From an uncultured Verrucomicrobiales bacterium (GTDB lineage Bacteria; Verrucomicrobiota; Verrucomicrobiia; Verrucomicrobiales; Akkermansiaceae), in assembly GCA_913060685.1 (NCBI GenBank), contig CAJXVQ010000010.1, positions 1-33,382 on the forward strand: a stretch of 33,382 nucleotides of DNA, in the 5' to 3' direction. The translations under genes and the position numbers were made by a program. The notes beneath the pieces were generated by a model. The model saw nothing but the letters and a program-made list of their open reading frames with translations. It did no database searches and had not been told where the DNA came from. Of this stretch, positions 3,382 to 21,942 are shown in pieces; within the stretch, counting starts at the first letter, position 1; the number at the start of each line of letters is the position of its first letter.

Positions 3382-6120
3382 TTATTGGCCGAAGTGTGCC
3401 CGGAAACTCTCGCCGTCCTGCCCCACTCCCTCGATTTCCGCATCAACGGCTTCCAATTGGGTTTTTAACCCGCCATCTTCAAGGGTCTTACGCAGAGCAA
3501 GGAGTTTGTTCAGGTAATTGAGACGAAGCGCCTCCAGTTTCGCGTCGACATCCTTCTTCTCCCGGGTCTGGCGTTCCCTCGCTTTGGCCAAATCCTGAAA
3601 AACTTCGGGGGCAAAACCACCCAGATCAATTTCACGGCTCAGATCACCATCCTTCGGAATTCTATCCTCCAACCCGCCATGGGCCCGCTCAAATCTTTTC
3701 TTGTTATTCCCGGAAAGCAGACGGAACCAGGTGTTCACATCAGAGATAAAGGAATCGCGATTCCCGAGGAGATACTTGCGATAGTCATCAACTTCCTTGG
3801 TCACGAGCCGGCGCCCAATTCCCCGTAGTTTTTGAAGCTGTCGGTTTTCCGCGCCATTGCCAGCAGGAGGAGCCGGGGCCGCGTCGGAGTCGGTGCTCCA
3901 CTCGATCAAGAAGCCGGTGGCGTTCCCATCACCGGGATTGGCATCATCCCATCCCGCCCCGGCAGATGCCTTGAGATAGCGAAGCGCGCGGTCCGATGGG
4001 CCACCGTCAGGGGAGTTGGGAGCCCAGTAGGCTTTCTCCCATGGCTCCCCGGTAATCCAGAGCCAGTCGCCCTCTTTCAAACGACCGCCAAGCCAAACGG
4101 ACTGATCTGGAAGCAGCGAGCTGTCGAGGAAGTCTCGAAGGAAAAAGGCCTCCAAAGTCTCGGAAACCACCGCAAGGTGACCATCCGCCGAGCTGGCAAT
4201 GAGATCAGCTTCGTCCCACGAGACTGATCTATGCACGAGGAGGAAATTGCGATTTTCGTGAGCCACCGTCGTGGGGGGCCAGGCGGGACTCGGAGACCCA
4301 AGTGTCGGGACAAGGCGTTCCAGCTGGGAGGCCAGAGAGCCGGCGTTCTTACCATTCTTGGACCACTGAATGACAAAGGGGTTCTTTTCCGCATTGGGCC
4401 GGGCCCTGATCACTCCGCTGTTACTGAGGGAGGCGCATGACCCCAGAGTCGTGCCGGGATCTTTGAGCTTCCATGGCTCGCCCGTGACCCAGGCCCAGTC
4501 TCCGCGTCCCCGGGCACCGCCGCCAATCCAGACCCGCTTCAGCTCGGTGCCCATATTCTTCGCGAGAACATCAATGTCAGCCTGGGTGGTCGGGGTGGCA
4601 AGATGAGCTCCGTGCAGCTCGGCAAACTCGGCCGCTTCGGTCCAAGTCATGGGACTCTTAACGAAGAAGAGAAAGTGACTGGAGCGGTCGATGGTATTAT
4701 CGGGAAAACGATCACGCCTTCCGTTGTAAAGAGCGGTACGGAACTCCGCGAGCCGCTCCATGGGGGTCTTGGCGTTCTCAATGTCAAGCAGCCGTTGACG
4801 CTCGATTTCACGGGCCGCCTCACGAACCTTTTCCTCCTTGGCCAGCTCTGCGAGGCGGACGGCGTCCCGCTTGGCTTTCTCACGCGCCGCTTCGCGTTCG
4901 GACTCTTCATTCTTTTCCTTCACCTCCGTTGCATCACGCTCGGCACTCATCCTCTCCTGCTTCTTTTCATAGAGACCCCAGGTGAAGATAATGATCGGGA
5001 TGAGGACGGCGATAATCAGCAGGTTCCTGATGACCGGCCAATTACTCCCAGTCTGTACTGAGATGGCCGGGACCGCGGGAGCACCTGCCGGAGCCGCCGC
5101 CTCCTTCCGGGCAGGAGGGGATTTGGGCAGAGGCTTCAGCCGGGATTGAGGCTCGCTCCCTGCTTTTGGAAGCGGCACGAGCTTGGGCTTGGGCTTGCCA
5201 TCATCACTCTTGTCGGAATCCCTATCGCTGGTCAGGCGGCGCTTCAAAGTTGTCGCCCCGGCTTTGTTTGGGCGATCCGCTCCGGAACGCAGGGCCCGTT
5301 GGCCACTTGTGCCAATGGTCGCAAGAACTTTCTGCAATTCATCGGCCATTTCATCCGCATTCTGGTAACGGAGGGCAGGGTTCCGACGAGTGGCTTTTTT
5401 GAAAATCGGGTCAAGACGTCGGTCGCACTTGGTAATGGAGGACGGTGGGCTCGCCGGCTCCTCGGGCATCTTTCCTGTCAGGAGTTCATAGAGGATCACC
5501 CCCACCGCGAAAATATCCGAAGGCACCCCCACCGCTTTGGCATTGGAAAAAATTTCGGGAGCAGCATAGCCGGGCGTCCCGAAAATCGGGCCATCCTCGG
5601 CGTCCTCCGAATCACTGGCTAAAGCGAGTCCAAAGTCCCCGATCTTGGGCTTGGCATTGGGATCAAGGAGGATATTGGCCGGCTTGATATCACGGTGGAC
5701 GATACCCGATTCATGGGCGTGTCCGAGACCGCGGCAAATCCCAATGATCAGCTCAATCGCAGTGGCTTGATCAATCGCCTTACCATAGCTGGAGTAGTAA
5801 AGAGACTTACCCGCAACCAGTTCCATCACGATAAATGGCATCCCGTTGGCCTCACCAAAGTCATAGATCCCGATCAAATTGACATGATTCAATTTCGCCA
5901 TGGATCTGGCTTCTGCCTGAAACTGGTTCCGAAATGATGGATCTTCTCCAAACTCCTCGGGCAAAAGTTTAATCGCAACGGGGCGATCGAGTGAAAGTTG
6001 GGTGGCCTTGTAGACGGCACCCATCCCGCCGGTGGCGATCAAGGAGGTGACCTCATAGCCATCAAGAAACTTGCTGAGCTCGGAGGGTTCCGGGGGATCA
6101 AATTGGATGGGATCGCTCAT
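3382..6120 (-). CDS. Receptor-like Hanks-type Ser/Thr kinase with two C-type-lectin-like domains
   Basis: The 912-residue product has an N-terminal cytoplasmic kinase domain (about 22-270), a Lys/Pro-rich linker, one transmembrane helix (about 362-382) and a charged coiled coil (about 385-445). Two C-type-lectin-like domains (about 478-588 and 622-742) and a C-terminal helical segment (about 755-912) follow. Kinase residues are intact: glycine loop 29-36, K51, H142-R143-D144, K146, N149, D162-F-G and A187-P-E. The lectin domains show the fold's WIGG/WLGG and WVTGEPW/WITGEPW signatures but lack the paired cysteines of animal lectins. By topology the lectin part is extracytoplasmic, so it may sense a glycan or surface ligand. 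The C-terminal region is a tryptophan-containing helical domain I cannot name. Such architectures occur in Planctomycetota/Verrucomicrobiota. The ligand and target are unknown. Confidence 0.92.
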   Translation of the reverse strand: MSDPIQFDPPEPSELSKFLDGYEVTSLIATGGMGAVYKATQLSLDRPVAIKLLPEEFGEDPSFRNQFQAEARSMAKLNHVNLIGIYDFGEANGMPFIVMELVAGKSLYYSSYGKAIDQATAIELIIGICRGLGHAHESGIVHRDIKPANILLDPNAKPKIGDFGLALASDSEDAEDGPIFGTPGYAAPEIFSNAKAVGVPSDIFAVGVILYELLTGKMPEEPASPPSSITKCDRRLDPIFKKATRRNPALRYQNADEMADELQKVLATIGTSGQRALRSGADRPNKAGATTLKRRLTSDRDSDKSDDGKPKPKLVPLPKAGSEPQSRLKPLPKSPPARKEAAAPAGAPAVPAISVQTGSNWPVIRNLLIIAVLIPIIIFTWGLYEKKQERMSAERDATEVKEKNEESEREAAREKAKRDAVRLAELAKEEKVREAAREIERQRLLDIENAKTPMERLAEFRTALYNGRRDRFPDNTIDRSSHFLFFVKSPMTWTEAAEFAELHGAHLATPTTQADIDVLAKNMGTELKRVWIGGGARGRGDWAWVTGEPWKLKDPGTTLGSCASLSNSGVIRARPNAEKNPFVIQWSKNGKNAGSLASQLERLVPTLGSPSPAWPPTTVAHENRNFLLVHRSVSWDEADLIASSADGHLAVVSETLEAFFLRDFLDSSLLPDQSVWLGGRLKEGDWLWITGEPWEKAYWAPNSPDGGPSDRALRYLKASAGAGWDDANPGDGNATGFLIEWSTDSDAAPAPPAGNGAENRQLQKLRGIGRRLVTKEVDDYRKYLLGNRDSFISDVNTWFRLLSGNNKKRFERAHGGLEDRIPKDGDLSREIDLGGFAPEVFQDLAKARERQTREKKDVDAKLEALRLNYLNKLLALRKTLEDGGLKTQLEAVDAEIEGVGQDGESFRAHFGQ

Positions 6121-6151
6121 GAAATTAGGGAAGGTGGGGCGCAGACTGGCG

Positions 6152-6188
6152 AATCAAGGGATCTGCGGCAATCCTTGATTTCCGCAGA
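6152..6188. promoter_or_regulatory. Two interleaved inverted repeats in the kinase/haemoglobin divergent region
   Basis: Repeat A pairs aatcaagg (6152-6159) with ccttgatt (6173-6180). Repeat B pairs tctgcgg (6162-6168) with ccgcaga (6182-6188). Both are perfect and both have 13-nt spacers, and the arms alternate A-B-A'-B'. In RNA the two stems would exclude each other, because the 1-nt and 2-nt connectors are too short for a full pseudoknot. In DNA they could be overlapping operators. The element lies 29 nt before the haemoglobin start and 31 nt before the kinase start. Confidence 0.5.
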
Positions 6189-6613: not shown

Positions 6614-7265
6614 TTCCCTGCTGAAGCAAAGAATGCCGGTCGTGATCCTCCTCGTGGTGATCACAATCATCACGCTCCTCGATTGGGCCTACACGAGACC
6701 CGATTATTCTCCCAATCCGCAGAGCTTCATGATGGTGCCGACCAATGTCGTCGAGGCTTGGGGAAATGCGCTGAAAGGAGATTACTCCGGGAGAACTCTC
6801 TTCGATCTTTCCACCACCCTCACCGCCGGATTCCTGCACGGCAACATGGGCCACCTTTTCGGGAACATGCTTTTTCTCTGGCTTTTCGGAGTGGTGGTGA
6901 GCGAACTCTGCGGATGGCGCTGGATGGTGGCGGCCTTCCTGATCACCGTCATCGGCGGGTCGGTGGGACAAATTCTCTTGGACCCTGAGAGCCCGATTCC
7001 GGTCCTCGGAGCCAGCGGAGGCCTCATGGGATTGATGGGATTCTATTTCGGGCTCGCCCTCCAACGGCCACGACCAGACTCACATGTCTGGCCTCTGGCC
7101 CGCCCGGTCAATTCGTCACAACTGGCCGCAGCGGGTGCCGTAGGAGTCTTTCTTGACTTCATGGGCGTAATCGATGGCATTCAAGGGATTGCCTTTGGAG
7201 CCCACATCGGAGGCTTTGTCACCGGGATCATCCTGAGTGTCGTGGCCGACCGTTTCGTTCGCTAA
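6606..7265 (+). CDS. Rhomboid family intramembrane serine protease
   Basis: From the ATG at 6606 the product is 219 residues with about six transmembrane helices. Rhomboid signatures are all present: H83-x-x-x-N87 in helix 2 (GHLFGNM), catalytic S137 in GASGG, and H200 in AHIGGF of the last helix, which completes the Ser-His dyad. It should cut transmembrane helices of unknown substrates in the inner membrane. An upstream in-frame ATG at 6510 would lie well inside the globin gene and is unlikely. The chosen start overlaps the globin stop by 8 bp, which suggests translational coupling. Its stop TAA (7263-7265) overlaps the stop of the convergent dabB-like gene (7262-7264). Confidence 0.92.
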   Translation: MPDSLLKQRMPVVILLVVITIITLLDWAYTRPDYSPNPQSFMMVPTNVVEAWGNALKGDYSGRTLFDLSTTLTAGFLHGNMGHLFGNMLFLWLFGVVVSELCGWRWMVAAFLITVIGGSVGQILLDPESPIPVLGASGGLMGLMGFYFGLALQRPRPDSHVWPLARPVNSSQLAAAGAVGVFLDFMGVIDGIQGIAFGAHIGGFVTGIILSVVADRFVR

Positions 7266-9130
7266 GAGGATCGATAAGCGGTCTCGTGGTAGCCTTTTTC
7301 GTGAGGTCCAAGGAAAAGCCGTGAGTAAATCCGGAAGATCACCAGCCCATCCATGATGAGATTCAGCACGATCAGGATGAGCAGCGGAAACTGGTTCTCA
7401 TGAATGTGTCCCAACATCAAATCCTCACCGATAAAGGTCGGCGTGACCGGAAAGCCCGCGAGCCCCAGGCAAGCGAATACGAAAAGGAAGGCCAACCTCG
7501 GATACTCAAACGAGTGTCCGTGAAACTTCGCCAACGAGACATCTTCGCCATTGTTACGCATCCGGTTAATGATCCAAATCCCGATCACCGCGGAAACGAC
7601 GATGCCACTCAGGTAGAGATAGACCTGGCTCATGTCGAACTCCTCGTTGAAGCTAAAAGCAAGAGCCTGATAAAGCTGGTTCACCACGATGAGAGCCCAT
7701 GCGTTGAGAGCGGAACGCCGCTCAACAAAGGCCTGCAGGATGAAAATGAGCCCAAAGAAGGCAAAGGCCTCCGGCAAATAACGCAAAAGACTCTCGGGAA
7801 CAACCTCCTTGTGATACGCCGCCCACGCTCCCATCAAAAACGGAGGGAGGGCAAGAATGTAGGTGTTCTGGGTCCCCAGTTTCCCGAAGAAAGCACCCGC
7901 CTTTTTCAAGGGTCGCCAGAGGAACCGGAACATGAACCGATCGAGGTTGAATTCCTTAATCCCCAGGGTGTATATCGATAGCTTGAGCTTATTGATCAAT
8001 CCTTCCGTTTCCTGTGCCGCCGGCTTCGAGAAGTGGAAGAACTGGTTGTGGATCTGGTAGTTCAGAACCGAAGGAGACACGAGCAACTGGTGACTCCGGA
8101 GCAACGCGTTGCAAATAAAATGCGCAATCGCCACCCAATACAATCCCATCGCGACCTCGATAAACATGAGCCCGATCTGAGCCACCGACGAATAGGCGAT
8201 CTGCGTCTTAATCGTCGACTGCACCCGGCCGATCAGGGTCGCCACGATGCACGTGGAGAGACCCACCAACCCGATCAACACGCAAAAGACGACATTGTCC
8301 TCCCAAAGCGGAGAGGTCCGGATCAGCAGGAACACTCCGATATGAACCGACAGCGATCCATAAAAAATCGCGCTTGAAGTCGTGGGCCCCTCCATCGCCC
8401 GCGGTAGCCAGTAGGAAAACGGCACCTGCGCCGACTTCACCATCGCCGCCAACAGGAAAGTTGCCGGGATGAAAAACTCATAAAATCCATGAGCCATGAT
8501 GTGCGGCTGCGCATCGTTCAAACCATTCATCTCCGCGAAGTTAATGCTCCTCCCAAAGTAGTGGTGACACACCCAGATTCCCAGGAGCATGGAAACATCC
8601 GCGACACGGTAAAGTGAGACCACCTTTACCGCATTCTTCACCGGCAGATACCGCTCGCGATAGAAGCTGATCAGGAAAAACGAGGTCACCCCGATGATCT
8701 CCCACCCCACAAAAAGCACCTCCAGATTCCCCGCCAACAGGACAACCATCAAGCCGCAATAGAAGAACTTCAGGATATTAAAGAAGCGCTTGAAGCCTTT
8801 CTCACGATGAATGTAGGTCCGGCTAAAGACCACGATGATGCCGGTGAGAAAGGTCGAGAGCAGGATGTAAGCGAGCCCATAACCATCGAGGAAGAAAGTC
8901 AGAGCAAATTCCGACTCCTTGGCGTGGTATAACACCGGCCCTTTCACCAGGACCGACGCCATCCCGCCTCTCAACCACATCACCAGCAGCGCAATCGCCG
9001 CCAGCATATTTACCGCCACTCCCAAAATCGCAGAACCGTAGATCGGATTCTCACGATGATTGGAAAAACAAAACCCGATCAGCAAAGCCACTACGGGCGC
9101 CGTCAGGAGGGTATAAATCAAAATTTCCAT
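7262..9130 (-). CDS. dabB: NuoL-like membrane subunit of DAB inorganic-carbon pump (DabB-like)
   Basis: The 622-residue polytopic protein belongs to the NADH dehydrogenase 5/NuoL/MrpA proton-translocating family. Charged residues needed for proton transfer in NuoL are at matching places: E144 in GWE, K232 in MVKSAQVPF and K308 in TIKTQIAYSSVAQIG. The motif after K232, MEGPTTSSAIFYGSLSV, replaces the usual His-containing GPTPVSALIHA, so it belongs to a diverged branch. No other complex I genes are nearby. It follows dabA by 29 nt, which matches the DAB system, in which DabB powers DabA by cation flux. It is longer than the classic DabB (about 550 residues), with the extra part in the C-terminal half. 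There is no good Shine-Dalgarno at its start. Confidence 0.85.
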   Translation of the reverse strand: MEILIYTLLTAPVVALLIGFCFSNHRENPIYGSAILGVAVNMLAAIALLVMWLRGGMASVLVKGPVLYHAKESEFALTFFLDGYGLAYILLSTFLTGIIVVFSRTYIHREKGFKRFFNILKFFYCGLMVVLLAGNLEVLFVGWEIIGVTSFFLISFYRERYLPVKNAVKVVSLYRVADVSMLLGIWVCHHYFGRSINFAEMNGLNDAQPHIMAHGFYEFFIPATFLLAAMVKSAQVPFSYWLPRAMEGPTTSSAIFYGSLSVHIGVFLLIRTSPLWEDNVVFCVLIGLVGLSTCIVATLIGRVQSTIKTQIAYSSVAQIGLMFIEVAMGLYWVAIAHFICNALLRSHQLLVSPSVLNYQIHNQFFHFSKPAAQETEGLINKLKLSIYTLGIKEFNLDRFMFRFLWRPLKKAGAFFGKLGTQNTYILALPPFLMGAWAAYHKEVVPESLLRYLPEAFAFFGLIFILQAFVERRSALNAWALIVVNQLYQALAFSFNEEFDMSQVYLYLSGIVVSAVIGIWIINRMRNNGEDVSLAKFHGHSFEYPRLAFLFVFACLGLAGFPVTPTFIGEDLMLGHIHENQFPLLILIVLNLIMDGLVIFRIYSRLFLGPHEKGYHETAYRSS

Positions 9131-9159
9131 TGAATCAGTTTTCTAAATTTTCTCGGCCC

Positions 9160-11685
9160 TTAGGCCTCTTCGTAAACGTGGACCGGAATATTCTCCTTCG
9201 TCGCATCCAGGATGTAGTTCGACTTCATCTCCGGGTGCGAGTGAATCGCCTTCTTGATGTCCTCGACTTTCGAAACCTCGGCAATCGGTTCATACTTGTG
9301 AAACTCCCCGTCCCGGAAGGAGTAAAGTTCCCCGTCTTCCGGCGACGACACCACAAGATGAAGCCAGCCCTTCACAAACCATTCCCGGTTCGCGGGGGAG
9401 TCATTTAAGATCCGCAGAACGACCTCGGGGCTATGCTCGACCAACATGAGCAAACGAACCGGATCATGGTTCTCGATCATCTGCAAAGGCAGTCCGGGCC
9501 GGAGATCTCCGTCGCTGCTATTCGCCACCCCGATCAGACCGACGACATTATGCGGCAGCTTGGTCCCTGCCCCCATCTTCTCGATATCCATCCGGGAAAA
9601 ATAATACTCCAGATTGATCCCCCCGCAGACGATCGGCAGCGGAGCCAGCACCTTGGCGAGAACCTCGCCATCAGGATCCTGACGGTAGTCGTAGGATTGC
9701 AGGAAAGCCCGCCGGTCTAGGAAAAGCCCCTTGATCCGATGCCGCGTTCCGACAAAGCAAAGCGCATTGGTGCCATGCCCCAGTTCGGGGCGCGGCTCAA
9801 AGTAGGAATGTGAGCGCTTCTTGATCGCCTGCCGGATCTTTTTGATATCCTGATTGGTATTGATGGACGCAAACCGCCGGGCTCGCTCCTTGGCATTCAG
9901 GTCGAGAGCCTCTTCAATGACAGCGAGATTCTCTTCGTGCTTTTCCTTGTGGACCGCTGAAAACGCGGACCGGTCATAGTAACCAATTTCATCACTTGCG
10001 GTATCATGCATCGCCGCCAGAAAATGCGTCGTTTGCGGAATCTCAATGCCCTTGTTTTTCAGAATATTTCGTACTTCAGGATGATTTGCCATAAAAGCAA
10101 AGACGCGTGCATTCGGTGCACCGGGCCGTCCGCTGCACGCCCCGCAATCGTGGGCGCCATGGTGGGGATTGTTGGCACTGCTGCTCCCATGAGCCATGAT
10201 ATAAACGATATCGGCAAAGTCCGTGATCAGGCCTATGCCCCGCAATATGCCTTCCACCACGTCCGCCATCTCGGGCACGGTGTAGCCAACCTGCGCATCA
10301 TGTTCGACCAGCGAGGGGTCCTCGCACTCGATCAAGAGCTTCCCGTTCACATCCATGTGCGCAAAGGCATCGGCAATGTCCGCCCGCATCGAAGGGCGCA
10401 AAAGATCCAGCACCATTCGCGCGCCCGACATCAAACCGAGCGAGAGGGATGAAAAGAAACCACGAAAGAAGGTGTGCAATTTCTTGTCATGGAAAGGGAC
10501 CGAGCCATGCGAATGGGTCGTTTCCACCTCCTTGATCAGATGCTTCGGCGTGACCGGAACCGGGCAGTTCTTTTCAACGAACTGCCCACCGAATGGCTGG
10601 AAGTAGATTGCCACTCCGAAAAATCCCGGAGCCCCGTAGGTGTCACAATTCGGATCAACCGACTCGAGATGACGCCGAAGCGAACACTCGCGGTCATCCA
10701 CACAGAAGATGGCTTGGAAGCTCGTCTCCTTCTCAATCTGCCGCCTCTTCTGCTTGTTCAAGTATCCCACTCCCGCGAGCACGCGATCGTAGTAGTCCCA
10801 CTCGAAGGCGAGTTGCCAGAGCTTCAACACCTCTTCCATCTCACCCGTCGGCACCTCGGCAAAGTAATCCTCCGACTTAAGCGCTTGATCCTCCCCCAGG
10901 GGCTTCCACCCCCCGGGCAGTTCCTGATCAATCGCATCGATCTCCAACAACAACTCCAGCATTACGAAATCCCGCAGCTCGATCTTCTTTTCGTAAAAAA
11001 GCGTCCCCGGTTGGTCCTCGATGGCATTGATGATGCCACTCCATCCCTTGTGCGTGAACTGCTGGTCGAGCACATATTGCTCGTAGAGTTCTTCCCGCCC
11101 CACCACGATCTTCAGCAAAGCTTCGAGGCTCAGTCCGTCATCCATGAGCAGGTCTCTGACCCGCTTCGAAGTGAAGAAACTGCTAAAGCTGTTCTTCTCG
11201 ATCGTTCGAATGGCCTCGATCAAGCCCCGGTCTTCAAAGGGGAAATGCCAAAGCGAAATTCCCTGGTCAAGATAGCTGCAAATGATCCGAAAAAGAAGCG
11301 GCTGGACGCGATCATCCAGGGAACATTTCAACCGCGGCTTCCATGCCTCCCGCAAGCTCCCGATCCGGGGCTCGTAGGTGTGGGGATAGTTGCCATTCAG
11401 CATCTTCTCCTTCCACTCCTTCACCGCGTCCGCGCCTTTCTCCTCACGGATCACGCGCTCCACAAAATCCACCTTAATCCGGCCGGCTTCATGGAGTTTG
11501 CGATATTCGTTAAAGCTAAAAGTCGCCTTGATCCCGAAAATTCGCGATGCCGAAAAAATCGCCTTAAAGAACTCCTGATCCTGCATGGCGTGAAGCGGAT
11601 TGTGGTGCACAAAATCTTTCAACGCCGCCTGCGTGGGCAGGTAGTGTTTCAGCCGATCGAACAAGCGGTCCTTGTCAAAACTCAT
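9160..11685 (-). CDS. dabA: DabA-like zinc subunit of DAB inorganic-carbon pump (DUF2309/UPF0753)
   Basis: The 841-residue soluble protein belongs to the DUF2309 family, now known as DabA, a beta-carbonic-anhydrase-like protein. It is thought to hydrate CO2 one-way to bicarbonate when coupled to DabB. The known zinc and catalytic residues are present with the right spacing: C328 and D330 in FCVDDRE, H499 in MAHGSS and C514 in AHDCGAC. The H-to-C distance of 15 is the same as in the Halothiobacillus protein (H524, C539). There is no signal peptide or membrane helix; it should sit at the cytoplasmic face of the membrane bound to DabB. The start overlaps the sulP stop (ATGA, 11682-11685) and has a good Shine-Dalgarno (agggggaaaaacg before ATG), so it is translationally coupled to sulP. 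Confidence 0.93.
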   Translation of the reverse strand: MSFDKDRLFDRLKHYLPTQAALKDFVHHNPLHAMQDQEFFKAIFSASRIFGIKATFSFNEYRKLHEAGRIKVDFVERVIREEKGADAVKEWKEKMLNGNYPHTYEPRIGSLREAWKPRLKCSLDDRVQPLLFRIICSYLDQGISLWHFPFEDRGLIEAIRTIEKNSFSSFFTSKRVRDLLMDDGLSLEALLKIVVGREELYEQYVLDQQFTHKGWSGIINAIEDQPGTLFYEKKIELRDFVMLELLLEIDAIDQELPGGWKPLGEDQALKSEDYFAEVPTGEMEEVLKLWQLAFEWDYYDRVLAGVGYLNKQKRRQIEKETSFQAIFCVDDRECSLRRHLESVDPNCDTYGAPGFFGVAIYFQPFGGQFVEKNCPVPVTPKHLIKEVETTHSHGSVPFHDKKLHTFFRGFFSSLSLGLMSGARMVLDLLRPSMRADIADAFAHMDVNGKLLIECEDPSLVEHDAQVGYTVPEMADVVEGILRGIGLITDFADIVYIMAHGSSSANNPHHGAHDCGACSGRPGAPNARVFAFMANHPEVRNILKNKGIEIPQTTHFLAAMHDTASDEIGYYDRSAFSAVHKEKHEENLAVIEEALDLNAKERARRFASINTNQDIKKIRQAIKKRSHSYFEPRPELGHGTNALCFVGTRHRIKGLFLDRRAFLQSYDYRQDPDGEVLAKVLAPLPIVCGGINLEYYFSRMDIEKMGAGTKLPHNVVGLIGVANSSDGDLRPGLPLQMIENHDPVRLLMLVEHSPEVVLRILNDSPANREWFVKGWLHLVVSSPEDGELYSFRDGEFHKYEPIAEVSKVEDIKKAIHSHPEMKSNYILDATKENIPVHVYEEA

Positions 11686-13298
11686 CGTTTTTCCCCCTTG
11701 GTTTTTCCTGCCCGCTTGCGCGCGGCCTGCGGGTGCGCTGACATTGGCGTCAGGCTATCCAGGCCGATAAACGCAACCTTTCCCCCGGCTCTCGTGTAGT
11801 CTTCCTCAAAGTGATGCAGATTCTGCATCACCGAGTGGTCCATCACCACGGTCCTGGCAAAATCCAGGCGGACTGTCTTGCCTGCTGGCAGCTTCCTGAT
11901 TGCCTCTTTAATGCCGAGATAGTTCGTGAAAATCGCAGCATCTCCGAGATGCAAGGTGACCTCGTCGCCCGCGCCCTCGACCTTCACCCCGGCCCGGAAA
12001 AGGGACTTCAGGGAAGCTCCGCGGAAAATGTGAATGATCGCCTTGAGCAACATGCCCGCCGCGATTCCGATGAGGAGATCTTCGAACAAGGTGAAGAAAA
12101 TCGTGGTCACAAAAATGGCCAACTGCTCAGGCCCCACTTTGAGCATGTGGGTGAATTCCTTCGGATGTGCCAACTTGATGCCTACCGCGATGAGCATCGC
12201 TGCCAAAGCGGCATTTGGGATCATCTCAAGCACCTGATAGGCCAGTAGGACCGAAAGGAGAAGAAAGGCTCCATGAAAAAAGTTCGCCCATCGCGTGCGC
12301 CCTCCCTGGGCCACGTTTGCCGAGCTACGGGCCACCTCCGAAATCATCGGCAGTCCACCCAACACGCCTGCCAGCGAGTTGCAAATTCCAATCGCAATCA
12401 TGTCCTTGTTGGGATCCGCCTTTCGTTTCCACGGATCAAGCATGTCGATCGCCTTCACCGTGAGGAGACTTTCCAGACTTCCCACCAACGCGACCATGAT
12501 GACGAATTTCACAAAGATCCCCGTCCGGGAAACCCCCTCTATACTGACATTGATGCCCACCTGCTCCACGATCTTGCCCACCTTGACCAGGGTGTGGTCC
12601 GGCGCACTATTTTGCAGATCCATGGCCAGTCCGGTGGGAATGGCAAAAAGAAGCACCAGCAGCGGTGCCGGGATCTGCTTCAACATGGGATGCTTCACAA
12701 ACCCCCACCCCATCATGATGACCAAACTCACCCCGCCAATGATGCTCACCTGGGGATCAAGATTGGCAAAAAACGAAGGGATCGCCCCCAGTAAAGCAAT
12801 CGGCCCTTTGCCCGAAGAAATCGAAGGATCGACGTTCAGCAAGACCGGAACCTGCTTCGCGATGATGATAAAACCAATCGCGGCCAGCATACCGTGCACC
12901 GCTGAAAGAGGGAAAATATCCACAAATTTCCCCCACTTCAGCAGGCCGAAAAGGATCTGGACCACACCCGCCACCACCATCACTCCGAGAGCGAGACGCC
13001 AACCCTCGACGCCGCCCCCGAAGGCCCCCACCGCATCTGCCAAAATTACGATCAACCCGGCCGCCGGCCCCTTGATCGAGAGTTGTGAGCCCGTCAAAAA
13101 GGTGGCCACAAGGCCACCGATAATCGCCGTCAAAACCCCCATGATGGGCGGGAATTCCGAGGCTGAGGCGATTCCCAGGCTCAGTGGGAGCGCCAGTAGA
13201 AAGACCACAAACCCCGAGGTCGCGTCTTTGGAAAAATTCTGTTTCAAGCCTTCCAGCCCGTCTTTGGGGATGGAACGCAAGTCCTGATGATTGTTCAT
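11682..13298 (-). CDS. SulP/SLC26-family anion (probably bicarbonate) transporter with STAS domain
   Basis: The 538-residue product has a SulP transmembrane domain (about 24-430) and a C-terminal STAS domain (about 443-525, with DFARTVVMDHSVMQNL). The N-terminal region has typical SulP segments such as LALPLSLGIASASEFPP and GSQLSIKGPAAG. SulP proteins carry sulfate, bicarbonate or other anions. Because this gene is fused by a 4-bp overlap to dabA, bicarbonate is the most likely substrate, as in BicA; this is inference. It is the first gene of the operon. The leader carries a hairpin (13331-13352) and a LysR-type dyad (13376-13392). No Shine-Dalgarno is visible at its ATG. Confidence 0.92.
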   Translation of the reverse strand: MNNHQDLRSIPKDGLEGLKQNFSKDATSGFVVFLLALPLSLGIASASEFPPIMGVLTAIIGGLVATFLTGSQLSIKGPAAGLIVILADAVGAFGGGVEGWRLALGVMVVAGVVQILFGLLKWGKFVDIFPLSAVHGMLAAIGFIIIAKQVPVLLNVDPSISSGKGPIALLGAIPSFFANLDPQVSIIGGVSLVIMMGWGFVKHPMLKQIPAPLLVLLFAIPTGLAMDLQNSAPDHTLVKVGKIVEQVGINVSIEGVSRTGIFVKFVIMVALVGSLESLLTVKAIDMLDPWKRKADPNKDMIAIGICNSLAGVLGGLPMISEVARSSANVAQGGRTRWANFFHGAFLLLSVLLAYQVLEMIPNAALAAMLIAVGIKLAHPKEFTHMLKVGPEQLAIFVTTIFFTLFEDLLIGIAAGMLLKAIIHIFRGASLKSLFRAGVKVEGAGDEVTLHLGDAAIFTNYLGIKEAIRKLPAGKTVRLDFARTVVMDHSVMQNLHHFEEDYTRAGGKVAFIGLDSLTPMSAHPQAARKRAGKTKGEKR

Positions 13299-18304: not shown

Positions 18305-20536
18305 ATGCTCAAAGTGCTTTGGTTCCTTGCCCTGCCTTTACCGGTCGTCCATGCCGCGCTGGATGAGCAGGTCGTAAATTTTTTGGAGCAGCACTGTTAC
18401 GACTGTCACGAGGCCGGGACCACCAAGGGCGGACTGCGTTTGGATGATCTCGCTGCAGATTTCACGGAGGGAGGCAGTATCGACATCTGGCAGGAAGTCC
18501 TTGAGAAACTGGAGACCGAAGAGATGCCTCCCAAGAAGAAGGAAAAACCTGCCACCGCGGACCGCCAGCAGCTCATGGAATGGATTCGGGCACGATTTGC
18601 CGAGCACGATATCGACCCGGTCATTGATCACAAACGCCGTTCCCCGGAATTCGGAAATCATCTCGATCACAAGGCACTCTTCGATGGATCCCATCAAGGC
18701 CACGCCTTTTCACCGCCGCGCCTGTGGAGATTCGGACCGCACGCGTATGATCGTTTCATCAAGGATGTGAGAGGATTACGCCACGCCACGACCATTCACC
18801 AGCCCTTCGCGATTGATGAAAGCAAGGGGGTGATCGCCGATTACGCGGCCAAGCACTTTGCCGATTCGGCAACGCTCCAACTCCTCATGATGAACTGCCG
18901 GTCCATTGCAGAGTATCAGACCACCGGGATCCTCAAGCGGGAGCACGACGGAAAAATGCACCGACATCAGAACACGCCCGATCCCTTCCGGGTGATTCTT
19001 GAGAACGAGGAGTCGCCGGACCAAGCGCAATTGAAGACCGCCATCGCCTGGGAATATCAACTCGTCTTGGAACGGGAACCTTCCGAAGAAGAAATGACCT
19101 CGACTTTGGCTTTCTGTGAAAACGCCATGCGCACGGCGGGAAAGAAGCGAGGTCTCCAGGCGACCTTGGTCTCCATCATGCTCAAACCGGAGGCGGTTTA
19201 TCGCATGGAGATTGGATTGGGAAAAACCGATGTCCACGGGCGGCGACGACTCTCCTCAATCGAACTGGCATTCGCTCTCTCTTTTGCCCTGATGGACCGG
19301 GGCCCCGGCAAGGTCCGCGTCGGCGGGGAGTCTCTACTCGATCTGGCCCGGGAGGGGAAGCTTGAGAGTCCTGGGCAGATCCGATCAGTCGTGAAAGGCA
19401 TCCTCGATGAGAACGACATGTCGACAGCCGACTTCACGATGTTTGCCCGGGACCATAAGATCCGAAACACCCGGGTGCTTCGCTTCTTCCGTGACTTCTT
19501 CGGCTATCACCACGCACCGCGCGTCTTTAAAGATGAGAACCGGATTGGCATCGATAGTGGTTTCGATACCAGGAAGATCGTGAATGACTGCGATCAATTC
19601 GTCATGAACATCTTTGATAAGGACAAGGATGTCCTTCGACGATTGCTCACGAGCAATGACTATTTCGTGGCATACCCCGGTTCCTTCGAGAAGTTCGAAA
19701 AGGATCTGGGCTACATTCGCAACAACAAGAACGATCAAAATTTCAAGTTTAACAAGAGCTACATTGAACGCACCGAAGCAGCGGGGCGCACTCCCATCCC
19801 CATCGAGGGACCATCGAGCCGGAAATATGTCGGCTTCTACAACATTGATCACGAGGCGTGGGATTACCCCACGGAGCAACCGTTCCCCCTTCCCAAAGAA
19901 GAACGTGCCGGCATCCTGATGCACCCCGCTTGGCTCATCGCCTGGTCGGGGAACTTCGACACCGACCCCATCCGCCGGGGCAAATGGATCCGTGAACATC
20001 TTCTGGCCGGAACGGTTCCTGAAATTCCAATCACGGTGGATGCCGTCATCCCGGAGGATCGGCACAAGACACTCCGCGAGCGGCTCACCGCGACCACCGC
20101 CAAGTCGTGCTGGAATTGTCACGAAAAAATGAACCCCCTCGGCCTTCCCTTTGAGAACTTCGATGACTTTGGCCGATTTCGTAAGAGTGAAATGTTGGGA
20201 GAATTACTCAGTATCTTTCCCGACCGACACCGGAAAGCGACCAGCGTGCCGGTCGACACAAGCGGCGCCATCACCGGGAGTGGAGAGCGGGCTTTGGAAG
20301 GAGAGGTGGCGAACGCTTTCGAAATGGTCCACAAACTCGCTGACTCCGATCTAGTGAGACAGTCTTTCGTTCGTCATACCTTCCGCTATTGGCTGGGACG
20401 TAATGAATCTTTCCATGACTCGCCCACCCTCATCGCGGCGGACCGCGCTTACACCGAAAATGGCGGAAGCATGAAAGCACTCATCGCCTCGCTCCTCTCT
20501 TCGGATTCCTTTCTCTACCGCAAATCCCAGCCATGA
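18305..20536 (+). CDS. Exported PSCyt1/DUF1592/DUF1588/DUF1585 cytochrome-like protein
   Basis: The 743-residue product has a signal peptide (cut near 17-18) and a cytochrome-like PSCyt1 domain with haem motif C31-x-x-C34-H35 and the family's MPP motif. A region in the place of DUF1587 is poorly conserved. DUF1595 (about 245-300), DUF1592 (about 315-430), DUF1588 (about 535-640) and DUF1585 (about 665-740) follow. DUF1588 has a second haem motif, C602-x-x-C605-H606 (CWNCH). The family is highly expanded in Planctomycetota and Verrucomicrobiota. A periplasmic redox role, perhaps in polysaccharide use, has been proposed but is not proven. The stop overlaps the start of the DUF1552 gene by 4 bp (ATGA), the usual pairing. 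Confidence 0.93.
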   Translation: MLKVLWFLALPLPVVHAALDEQVVNFLEQHCYDCHEAGTTKGGLRLDDLAADFTEGGSIDIWQEVLEKLETEEMPPKKKEKPATADRQQLMEWIRARFAEHDIDPVIDHKRRSPEFGNHLDHKALFDGSHQGHAFSPPRLWRFGPHAYDRFIKDVRGLRHATTIHQPFAIDESKGVIADYAAKHFADSATLQLLMMNCRSIAEYQTTGILKREHDGKMHRHQNTPDPFRVILENEESPDQAQLKTAIAWEYQLVLEREPSEEEMTSTLAFCENAMRTAGKKRGLQATLVSIMLKPEAVYRMEIGLGKTDVHGRRRLSSIELAFALSFALMDRGPGKVRVGGESLLDLAREGKLESPGQIRSVVKGILDENDMSTADFTMFARDHKIRNTRVLRFFRDFFGYHHAPRVFKDENRIGIDSGFDTRKIVNDCDQFVMNIFDKDKDVLRRLLTSNDYFVAYPGSFEKFEKDLGYIRNNKNDQNFKFNKSYIERTEAAGRTPIPIEGPSSRKYVGFYNIDHEAWDYPTEQPFPLPKEERAGILMHPAWLIAWSGNFDTDPIRRGKWIREHLLAGTVPEIPITVDAVIPEDRHKTLRERLTATTAKSCWNCHEKMNPLGLPFENFDDFGRFRKSEMLGELLSIFPDRHRKATSVPVDTSGAITGSGERALEGEVANAFEMVHKLADSDLVRQSFVRHTFRYWLGRNESFHDSPTLIAADRAYTENGGSMKALIASLLSSDSFLYRKSQP

Positions 20537-21942
20537 CCCCCACTCGTCGACATCTTCTCAAAGGACTTTCGCTAGGCGCTGTCTCACCTCTCCTCATGCC
20601 ATTCGTGAGCCGACTCCGGGCCGAGGGAACGACAGCAGGCGTGCCCAAGCGTTTCCTCTTCGTCGTAAAATCGAGTGGACTCACCCCTGCTGAACTCGTC
20701 CCGACCGAACTCGTTTCAACGATGGTAAAACCGGGCGAAAAAGAAGGTTGGCCCGAGGAATTAAAGCGCACCGACAAGTTGCTCGATCTGCCGCTCGCGA
20801 GCTATGAACTCCCGGGTTCGCTCCGCGCCCTAAAACCCTTCAAAGATCAATTGACGATCTTACAAGGACTCTCCGGCAAGATGTGCCGCGGGGGTCACTC
20901 GGCCTGGTATGGCGCTCTGGGCTGCTATCACACCGGTGATGAAGGCAACCCGGGACGCCCCGTCTCCGCAACCATTGATGGTCTGCTGGCCCGCGCCCTT
21001 CCGGCAATCTTTCCTCACATTGGCTTAACCCTTGGAGGCAAGGTTCTTTCGGGAGTCAAAGACTCCGTCGTCTACCCCGGCATCTCCGCGCTCGATATCG
21101 ACCGGCCTCTCCCCTATCAGGCAAATCCCGCCATCGCCTTTCAGAGTCTCTTCGGCGTGGCGGCCACGGGGAAAGACGCGGCGGCGGAACAGGAAGTGCA
21201 AGCGATGTTGCTTGACCACATGGTGGGCGATATCAAGCGCGTCCAGGGCGCGATTGGAAACGAGGATCGGGAAAAACTGGATCATTACCTGGGAGCATTC
21301 GAGGGCCTCCAGGATCGCAGTCGACGGTTGAAGGGCATGGAAGCCAGGATTCGAAAGCATACCCCCGAGGTCTCCGACAAATACACTTCGGAGGTGGAGA
21401 CCGATCGCCTGGAAGCCCACTTTGACATGGCAGGGGCCGCGCTCATCTCGGGCATCTCAAACGTCGTGACCGTCCGCGCCGACACTCTGGACGTAACCTA
21501 TCGTGGCCTCGGGATTTCCAAGCACGTTCACGGCCTGGGACACGCGGAGTCGGTCAACGGGATGACGTCGGTCGAAGCCCGCCGCCGCATCCGCACCTTT
21601 CACCTCGACCAGATCGCTCGCGTGGCGGCCAAACTCAAAGCTGTCCCTGAAGGAGACGGCACGATGTTGGACAATACCCTCATCGTCTACCTCAGTGATG
21701 CCGCCGAGAAGCACCACGGGAGTTGCCTGGAATGGCCCTTTATCCTGTTAGGCGGACTGGCGGGATCTGGCGGGCGCTATCTCCAATACCCCGGTTATGG
21801 AGCCGAAGGTCACCGCACCATCGCTAATCTCTACAACACCTTGATGCACGCAGTGGGCAAGCCCCGGGATCAGTTCGGGCGTCTCGACGTCAATCTTGCC
21901 AAGAGCCTCCAACGCGGCCCCTTGGCCGAGTTAATGACCTAA
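20533..21942 (+). CDS. DUF1552 family exported protein (Tat-type signal)
   Basis: The 469-residue product starts with MTPTRRHLLKGLSLGAV, a twin-arginine-like signal (R5-R6) that implies export in a folded state. The rest matches DUF1552, including LQGLSGKMCRGGHSAW and YLSDAAEKHHGS. The latter resembles metal-ligand motifs of the alkaline phosphatase/sulfatase-like superfamily, of which DUF1552 and DUF1501 are thought to be distant members. The molecular function is unknown. It is translationally coupled to the upstream DUF1592 gene and probably works with it in the periplasm. An 88-bp gap without a strong terminator separates it from the convergent xanthine dehydrogenase-like gene. A weak palindrome (ctcgcgcgag, 22010-22019) is the only structure there. 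Confidence 0.92.
   Translation: MTPTRRHLLKGLSLGAVSPLLMPFVSRLRAEGTTAGVPKRFLFVVKSSGLTPAELVPTELVSTMVKPGEKEGWPEELKRTDKLLDLPLASYELPGSLRALKPFKDQLTILQGLSGKMCRGGHSAWYGALGCYHTGDEGNPGRPVSATIDGLLARALPAIFPHIGLTLGGKVLSGVKDSVVYPGISALDIDRPLPYQANPAIAFQSLFGVAATGKDAAAEQEVQAMLLDHMVGDIKRVQGAIGNEDREKLDHYLGAFEGLQDRSRRLKGMEARIRKHTPEVSDKYTSEVETDRLEAHFDMAGAALISGISNVVTVRADTLDVTYRGLGISKHVHGLGHAESVNGMTSVEARRRIRTFHLDQIARVAAKLKAVPEGDGTMLDNTLIVYLSDAAEKHHGSCLEWPFILLGGLAGSGGRYLQYPGYGAEGHRTIANLYNTLMHAVGKPRDQFGRLDVNLAKSLQRGPLAELMT

Follow-up and report, generated by a model that had tools for sequence, protein, structure and literature searches.

We found that SulP anion transporters are linked far beyond chance to the DabA proteins of one clade, here called A-first, in which dabA precedes dabB, and that an operon of this kind, sulP-dabA-dabB, lies on a contig of an uncultured Verrucomicrobiales bacterium. 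The SulP and the A-first DAB are very likely functional partners, judging from gene neighbourhoods and fusions, and the operon is probably a bicarbonate-supply module of a heterotroph without RuBisCO, which would belong to a distinct SulP-coupled DAB subfamily. This putative subfamily is marked by the A-first order, a SulP of its own, the lack of the finger glutamate of DabA, NuoL-like ion pairs in DabB and a Glu-Asp pair in DabB. The window, meaning the whole stretch of DNA that was analysed, is the entire contig C10, 33,382 nucleotides long, of a 6.93 Mb genome that is 93.6% complete.

Organisation of the sulP-dabA-dabB operon

The three genes are consecutive on the minus strand from 13298 down to 7262, sulP and dabA overlapping in an ATGA and dabB following downstream after a gap of 29 nt, which bears out the operon proposed in an earlier note on this DNA.

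11682-13298, minus strand: sulP, operon gene 1, SulP/SLC26-type anion transporter, 538 aa (PF00916 match)
11682-11685, minus strand: ATGA, start of dabA overlapping the stop of sulP (read from the sequence)
9160-11685, minus strand: dabA, predicted CO2-hydrating subunit, 841 aa (PF10070 match; match to DabA2 of 9rd0)
7262-9130, minus strand: dabB, NuoL-like membrane subunit, 622 aa (PF00361 match; AlphaFold model; Foldseek match to NuoL)

All three products are recognised by Pfam models, SulP in its core (PF00916, residues 22-398, 197.6 bits, cut-off 23.2, E=3.6e-58), DabA (PF10070, 700.9 bits, cut-off 25, E=2.9e-210) and DabB (PF00361, 143.7 bits, E=9e-42). DabA additionally matches DabA2 of PDB entry 9rd0 in sequence (E=1.6e-65). 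A Foldseek search of the DabA model against the PDB (copy to 8 April 2026) gave a best E of 0.23, with DAB2 not among the matches listed, nor among those listed for the DabB model; this poor result is no argument against the family, and the sequence match to 9rd0 stands.

The nearest upstream neighbour on the same strand is an amino-acid permease gene, which ends ~590 nt before sulP, and a rhomboid gene on the opposite strand lies downstream, tail to tail with dabB. The window gave no matches to Rfam models and no tRNAs, and a promoter scan of it scored no better than shuffles. Elsewhere in the window, we observe a PSCyt/DUF1588-DUF1585 gene and an HXXSHH (DUF1552) gene overlapping by 4 nt (18305-21942), as well as two sulfatase genes close to the contig end (28739-32270).

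Linkage of SulP and DabA within the order

DabA was found in 75 of 240 genomes of the window's order. The DabA tree and gene neighbourhoods separate an A-first clade of 46 rows, in which dabA precedes dabB, from a B-first clade of 41 rows, in which dabB comes first. The B-first clade is DAB2-like, its member L093 scoring 648 bits against DabA2 versus 225 bits for the window DabA. A SulP gene lies within 3 kb of 41 of the 46 A-first DabAs versus 3 of the 37 B-first DabAs for which dabB was found (Fisher P=2.8e-14, an optimistic value since the sequences are related by descent and so dependent), and two of the five A-first exceptions sit on short contigs. The linkage also holds when SulP is taken as the starting point: of 41 window-type SulPs, 34 have a DabA no more than 3 kb away, and DabA is present in 39 of the 40 genomes with a window-type SulP (P about 1e-22). 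In one genome of the same genus (G167:C54:39687-42093), sulP is kept beside short, frame-shifted dabA remnants, which represent either a decayed operon copy or an assembly fault.

Relatives beyond the order and SulP-DabA fusions

For the wider scan we used one genome per species (GTDB r220) and kept the best 80 relatives, which are mostly Bacteroidota, the rest being Verrucomicrobiota, Nitrosomonas and a small number of other bacteria. The earlier note had made its reading depend on the SulP-dabA pairing being conserved in relatives, and the pairing is conserved, since, on top of the A-first counts within the order, SulP is either fused or no more than 3 kb away in 64 of these 80 relatives, in upstream, downstream or divergent positions. 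When counting only the 56 relatives with at least 2.5 kb on each side, SulP is near or fused in 45; the remaining 16 of the 80 have no near SulP, 11 of them with at least 2.5 kb on each side. Furthermore, SulP and DabA form a single ORF on five separate contigs, four of which (L112, L115, L117, L119) encode proteins of 1383-1408 aa with an N-terminal SulP and a C-terminal DabA, while the fifth (L053), from the window's order, encodes a fusion of 1430 aa with 81% and 74% identity to the window SulP and DabA, respectively. The distances of SulP and DabA are correlated (Mantel r=0.42; none of 2000 permutations reached this value). Gene overlap and fusions suggest that SulP and DabA may sit together in the membrane.

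In the tree, the window falls within a mostly Bacteroidota group of 13, in which SulP is upstream in 7, fused in 5 and downstream in 1; taken by itself, the tree suggests transfer of the operon from Bacteroidota. Composition gives no sign of recent import, the GC content of the trio matching that of the neighbouring genes. In plasmid records, all DabA matches are below 60% identity.

Pairs of dabA-dabB that belong to the window's clade and have no SulP occur in L125 (labelled Candidatus Kaiserbacteria) and L132 (labelled Candidatus Saccharibacteria, a complete chromosome), and DABs are unexpected in such reduced genomes. In Nitrosomonas mobilis (L175:3-6117), a second set of dabA-dabB and a third gene lies directly upstream of the SulP-linked one.

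Two types of SulP and the residues of the pocket

The SulP/STAS label of the earlier note holds for the SulP core and is weak for the tail, which scores 13.9 bits against STAS, under the Pfam cut-off of 22.6, and is STAS-like at best. The best family model is the general sulP model TIGR00815, which extends to residue 510 and stays below its own cut-off. The best PDB sequence match is BicA (6ki1), the cyanobacterial SulP bicarbonate transporter, with which the operon protein shares its family; unlike BicA, it has Glu for the BicA Asp, and Arg324, Lys76 and Glu321 in the pocket. Against the NCBIfam BicA equivalog it scores 130.4 bits and does not reach the cut-off of 880, and we assign it to PF00916, outside the BicA equivalog. 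Because the BicA model is so far below cut-off and Glu replaces the BicA Asp, the substrate of SulP is unreadable from sequence; the pocket residues allow no such reading either, Glu276 and Arg324 being common to many SulPs. Two other residues distinguish the DAB-linked proteins:

13071-13073, minus strand: sulP codon for Lys76 (TM3), a mark of DAB-linked SulPs (residue comparison)
12336-12338, minus strand: sulP codon for Glu321 (TM10), a mark of DAB-linked SulPs (residue comparison)

Window-type SulPs have Lys76 in 46/48 and Glu321 in 48/48 cases, and a divergent set has them in 27/27 and 28/28. Ser/Thr and Val take these places in a second type of SulP near DABs and in the CA-paired SulP of the host, and among the SulPs examined the Lys76/Glu321 signature is confined to DAB-linked ones. 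Across the 80 relatives, a beta-CA gene is near 16 of 19 second-type SulP loci versus 1 of 44 window-type loci, the types being assigned by score (Fisher P=4e-11). From this gene context, DabA beside the window-type SulP seems to occupy the place of the beta-CA beside the second type. In some relatives SulP, beta-CA and dabAB are found together at a single locus, and a SulP-CA fusion is present in L051.

One SulP of Thiomicrospira pelophila and its DAC each rescue CA-null E. coli, and another of its SulPs does not (PMC12628692), so that finding a SulP among inorganic-carbon genes does not prove bicarbonate transport. That the operon SulP imports bicarbonate is nonetheless what we consider reasonably likely. 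Animal SLC26 relatives swap bicarbonate for other anions, which favours a different reading, in which SulP is an exchanger that lets the bicarbonate formed by DabA-DabB out and sulfate or chloride in, the DAB then powering anion uptake or pH control. The unusual Lys76 and Glu321 in the pocket speak for such an exchanger, as do the two sulfatases of the window, which would release sulfate. We judge it unlikely, given that the loci of relatives that hold SulP, beta-CA and dabAB fit carbon supply more simply and that the sulfatases are ~15 kb off and outside the conserved gene set.

Some DAB-linked SulPs, 720-766 aa in length, have ~200 additional residues at the C-terminus (L116, L145, L146, L158, L168, L172, L174, L181); this extension had no Pfam match in the two scanned, L174 and L116. 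Additionally, in several Bacteroidota a gene between sulP and dabA likely encodes, by eye, an outer-membrane beta-barrel, which may be a porin that admits the same substrate, and the one such protein scanned had no Pfam match. Its positions are:

L145:5571-6935, likely beta-barrel gene
L161:5618-6970, likely beta-barrel gene
L154:5566-6939, likely beta-barrel gene
L171:2270-3601, likely beta-barrel gene
L131:5594-6259, likely beta-barrel gene

Catalytic and coupling residues of DabA and DabB

The sites in dabA and dabB that bear on hydration and coupling are the following.

10690-10704, minus strand: dabA codons 328-332, zinc ligand C328 and dyad D330/R332 (alignment to C351/D353/R355)
10144-10191, minus strand: dabA codons 499-514, zinc ligands H499 and C514 (alignment to H524/C539)
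10396-10470, minus strand: dabA codons 406-430, finger region without DabA2 Glu444 (alignment of 163 DabAs)
8699-8701, minus strand: dabB codon for Glu144, the NuoL Glu144 equivalent, Ile151 in DabB2 (114/114 A-first DabBs)
7421-7426, minus strand: dabB codons for Glu569-Asp570 in a PTFIGEDL-type motif of the extra C-terminal part (conservation; helix break in the model)

The active site of DabA is intact, as the earlier note had read it, with C328, D330, H499 and C514 aligning exactly with C351, D353, H524 and C539 of DabA2 (9rd0), and R332 aligning with R355, the fifth required residue of DabA2 (PMC13144422). Both the zinc ligands and the Asp-Arg dyad, which DAB2 needs for function (PMC13144422), are invariant across the 163 aligned DabAs. 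At the finger, the window DabA has Leu in the column of DabA2 Glu444, a residue found in 0/126 A-first DabAs and in 36/37 B-first DabAs, with Asp in the remaining one; Ala or Gln at this position abolishes DAB2 activity (PMC13144422). The loss of Glu444 could mean altered or absent coupling, and it counts against the reading of the operon as a supply module.

In DabB, the Glu144 of NuoL is kept in 114/114 A-first proteins, where DabB2 has Ile151, and the positions equivalent to DabB2 H260 and K347 are Tyr and Arg, while Lys232, Lys308, His337 and the full NuoL ion-pair set are retained. With coupling residues that differ from those of DAB2 in every A-first sequence checked, the DAB2 mechanism cannot simply be copied. 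The AlphaFold model of DabB (pTM 0.84) matches NuoL over the full length in Foldseek, and the rmsd is high once the second half is included, so that the helix break near 559-563, before the PTFIGEDL-type motif, is a prediction and not a superposition. This motif is conserved in the extra C-terminal part of the window DabB, and we hypothesise that its Glu-Asp may replace the finger Glu, by analogy with Lys399-Asp400 in NuoL. In several related operons, where DabB is 450 aa, a separate third antiporter-like gene bears a GYCAEDL motif. The third gene of the related A-first operons L050, L043, L071, L039, L040, L047, L051 and L075 is NuoL/M-like, encodes about 440-540 aa and has a GLPGTLGYCAEDL-type motif.

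These residues also bear on a reading in which A-first DabA-DabB is an uncoupled membrane-bound carbonic anhydrase, or a regulator, that serves SulP, with SulP alone doing the uphill work. It draws on the absence of Glu444, essential in DAB2 (PMC13144422), from all 126 A-first DabAs and on the Tyr and Arg in DabB, and we hold it to be quite unlikely, as the DabB lysines, His337 and NuoL ion pairs are kept, the gained Glu-Asp motif may stand in for the finger Glu, and Arg preserves the charge at K347, even though changing K347 to alanine is harmful in DabB2.

Inorganic carbon in the host genome

The absence of RuBisCO, which the earlier note had reported for the window, extends to the whole 93.6%-complete genome, where PF00016, for the RuBisCO large subunit, has no match, unlike in an autotrophic CO2-concentrating mechanism. 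PEP carboxylase, a bicarbonate-using enzyme, is present. The proposal of a heterotroph supplied with bicarbonate is thereby supported in these two respects, and a heterotroph that needs bicarbonate for carboxylation is the simple reading of the host. The genome also encodes one beta-CA and one alpha-CA, so the operon is not the host's sole CO2/HCO3- enzyme, and three SulPs besides that of the operon. A second host locus, L197 (G000:C150), has sulP followed by a beta-CA gene after a 5-nt gap (3945-6163), without dabA; at the end of L197, about 9520-9567, where contig C150 stops, a Nextera adapter (CTGTCTCTTATACACATCTCCGAGCCCACGAGAC) remains as an artefact of assembly.

Proposed function

Bicarbonate transport, its direction, energy coupling, contact between the proteins and the purpose of the module are what we infer as follows. 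CO2 would enter the cell by diffusion and be hydrated in the cytoplasm, one way, at the beta-carbonic-anhydrase-like zinc site of DabA, and DabB, as a NuoL-like proton channel, would couple this hydration to the membrane potential. The dedicated SulP would import bicarbonate from outside, so that DabA and SulP would both fill a cytosolic bicarbonate pool from which PEP carboxylase and further carboxylases would draw, and leaking CO2 would be recaptured by DabA. A stronger version, in which SulP-DabA-DabB is one physical machine with a bicarbonate gate and the proton-coupling role of the DabA finger residue has passed to the Glu-Asp of DabB, is conceivable, and we put it forward only tentatively. 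It is very unlikely that SulP carries sulfate or another nutrient and is merely co-regulated with the DAB, for example in a low-nutrient response, with no common substrate: SulP is a mixed-substrate family, and the top model is the general one, below its own cut-off, but the fusions, the two-way linkage, the several gene geometries across phyla and the signature confined to DAB-linked SulPs all stand against it.

Relation to known systems

Like DAB2/DAC of Halothiobacillus neapolitanus (9rd0), the operon has a PF10070 DabA with the same five catalytic residues, a NuoL-like DabB and adjacent genes. Unlike DAB2, it has the order dabA-dabB and a linked or fused SulP, its DabA is without Glu444, and its DabB has Glu144, Tyr/Arg for H260/K347 and, at 622 aa, an extra C-terminal segment. 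By sequence, it is assigned to the DAB/DAC family, outside the DAB2 subtype by the two features tested, Glu444 and Glu144. The earlier note's description of DAB pumps as two-gene systems does not always apply, as DAB1 of H. neapolitanus has a third small membrane protein besides DabA and DabB (PMC13144422).

MpsAB of Staphylococcus aureus likewise consists of DabB/DabA homologues in a heterotroph and is required for growth in air CO2 (PMC6689103); unlike the operon, it comes with no mention of SulP in the MpsAB paper PMC8552792, and the likeness is one of description. SulP-CA fusions and sulP-beta-CA pairs resemble the operon in joining SulP to a C-terminal or neighbouring carbonic-anhydrase-type enzyme, but the operon has DabA as the enzyme, paired with the membrane subunit DabB, and a SulP of the Lys76/Glu321 type. 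In a 2024 review, SulP and DAC are two tools dealt with independently of each other (PMC10880623). In the open-access literature we found no account of a sulP-dabA-dabB trio or of SulP-DabA fusions, although an earlier mention elsewhere is possible, and the SulP-linked A-first DAB is apparently a branch, not described before, of a machinery already known to supply bicarbonate.

Overall, the A-first clade, which is common in Bacteroidota and also occurs in Verrucomicrobiota, has its own SulP, fusions and different coupling residues. DAB pumps have been elucidated chiefly on the DAB2 type from chemolithoautotrophs. If the proposed reading is true, the exchange of the finger Glu for the Glu-Asp of DabB would offer a handle on how DABs are coupled to the membrane potential, and the fused SulP-DabA would be a single-protein transporter-enzyme for structural work. 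The operon may also be of use for engineering compact bicarbonate systems, and it would suggest how heterotrophs of CO2-poor places obtain bicarbonate.
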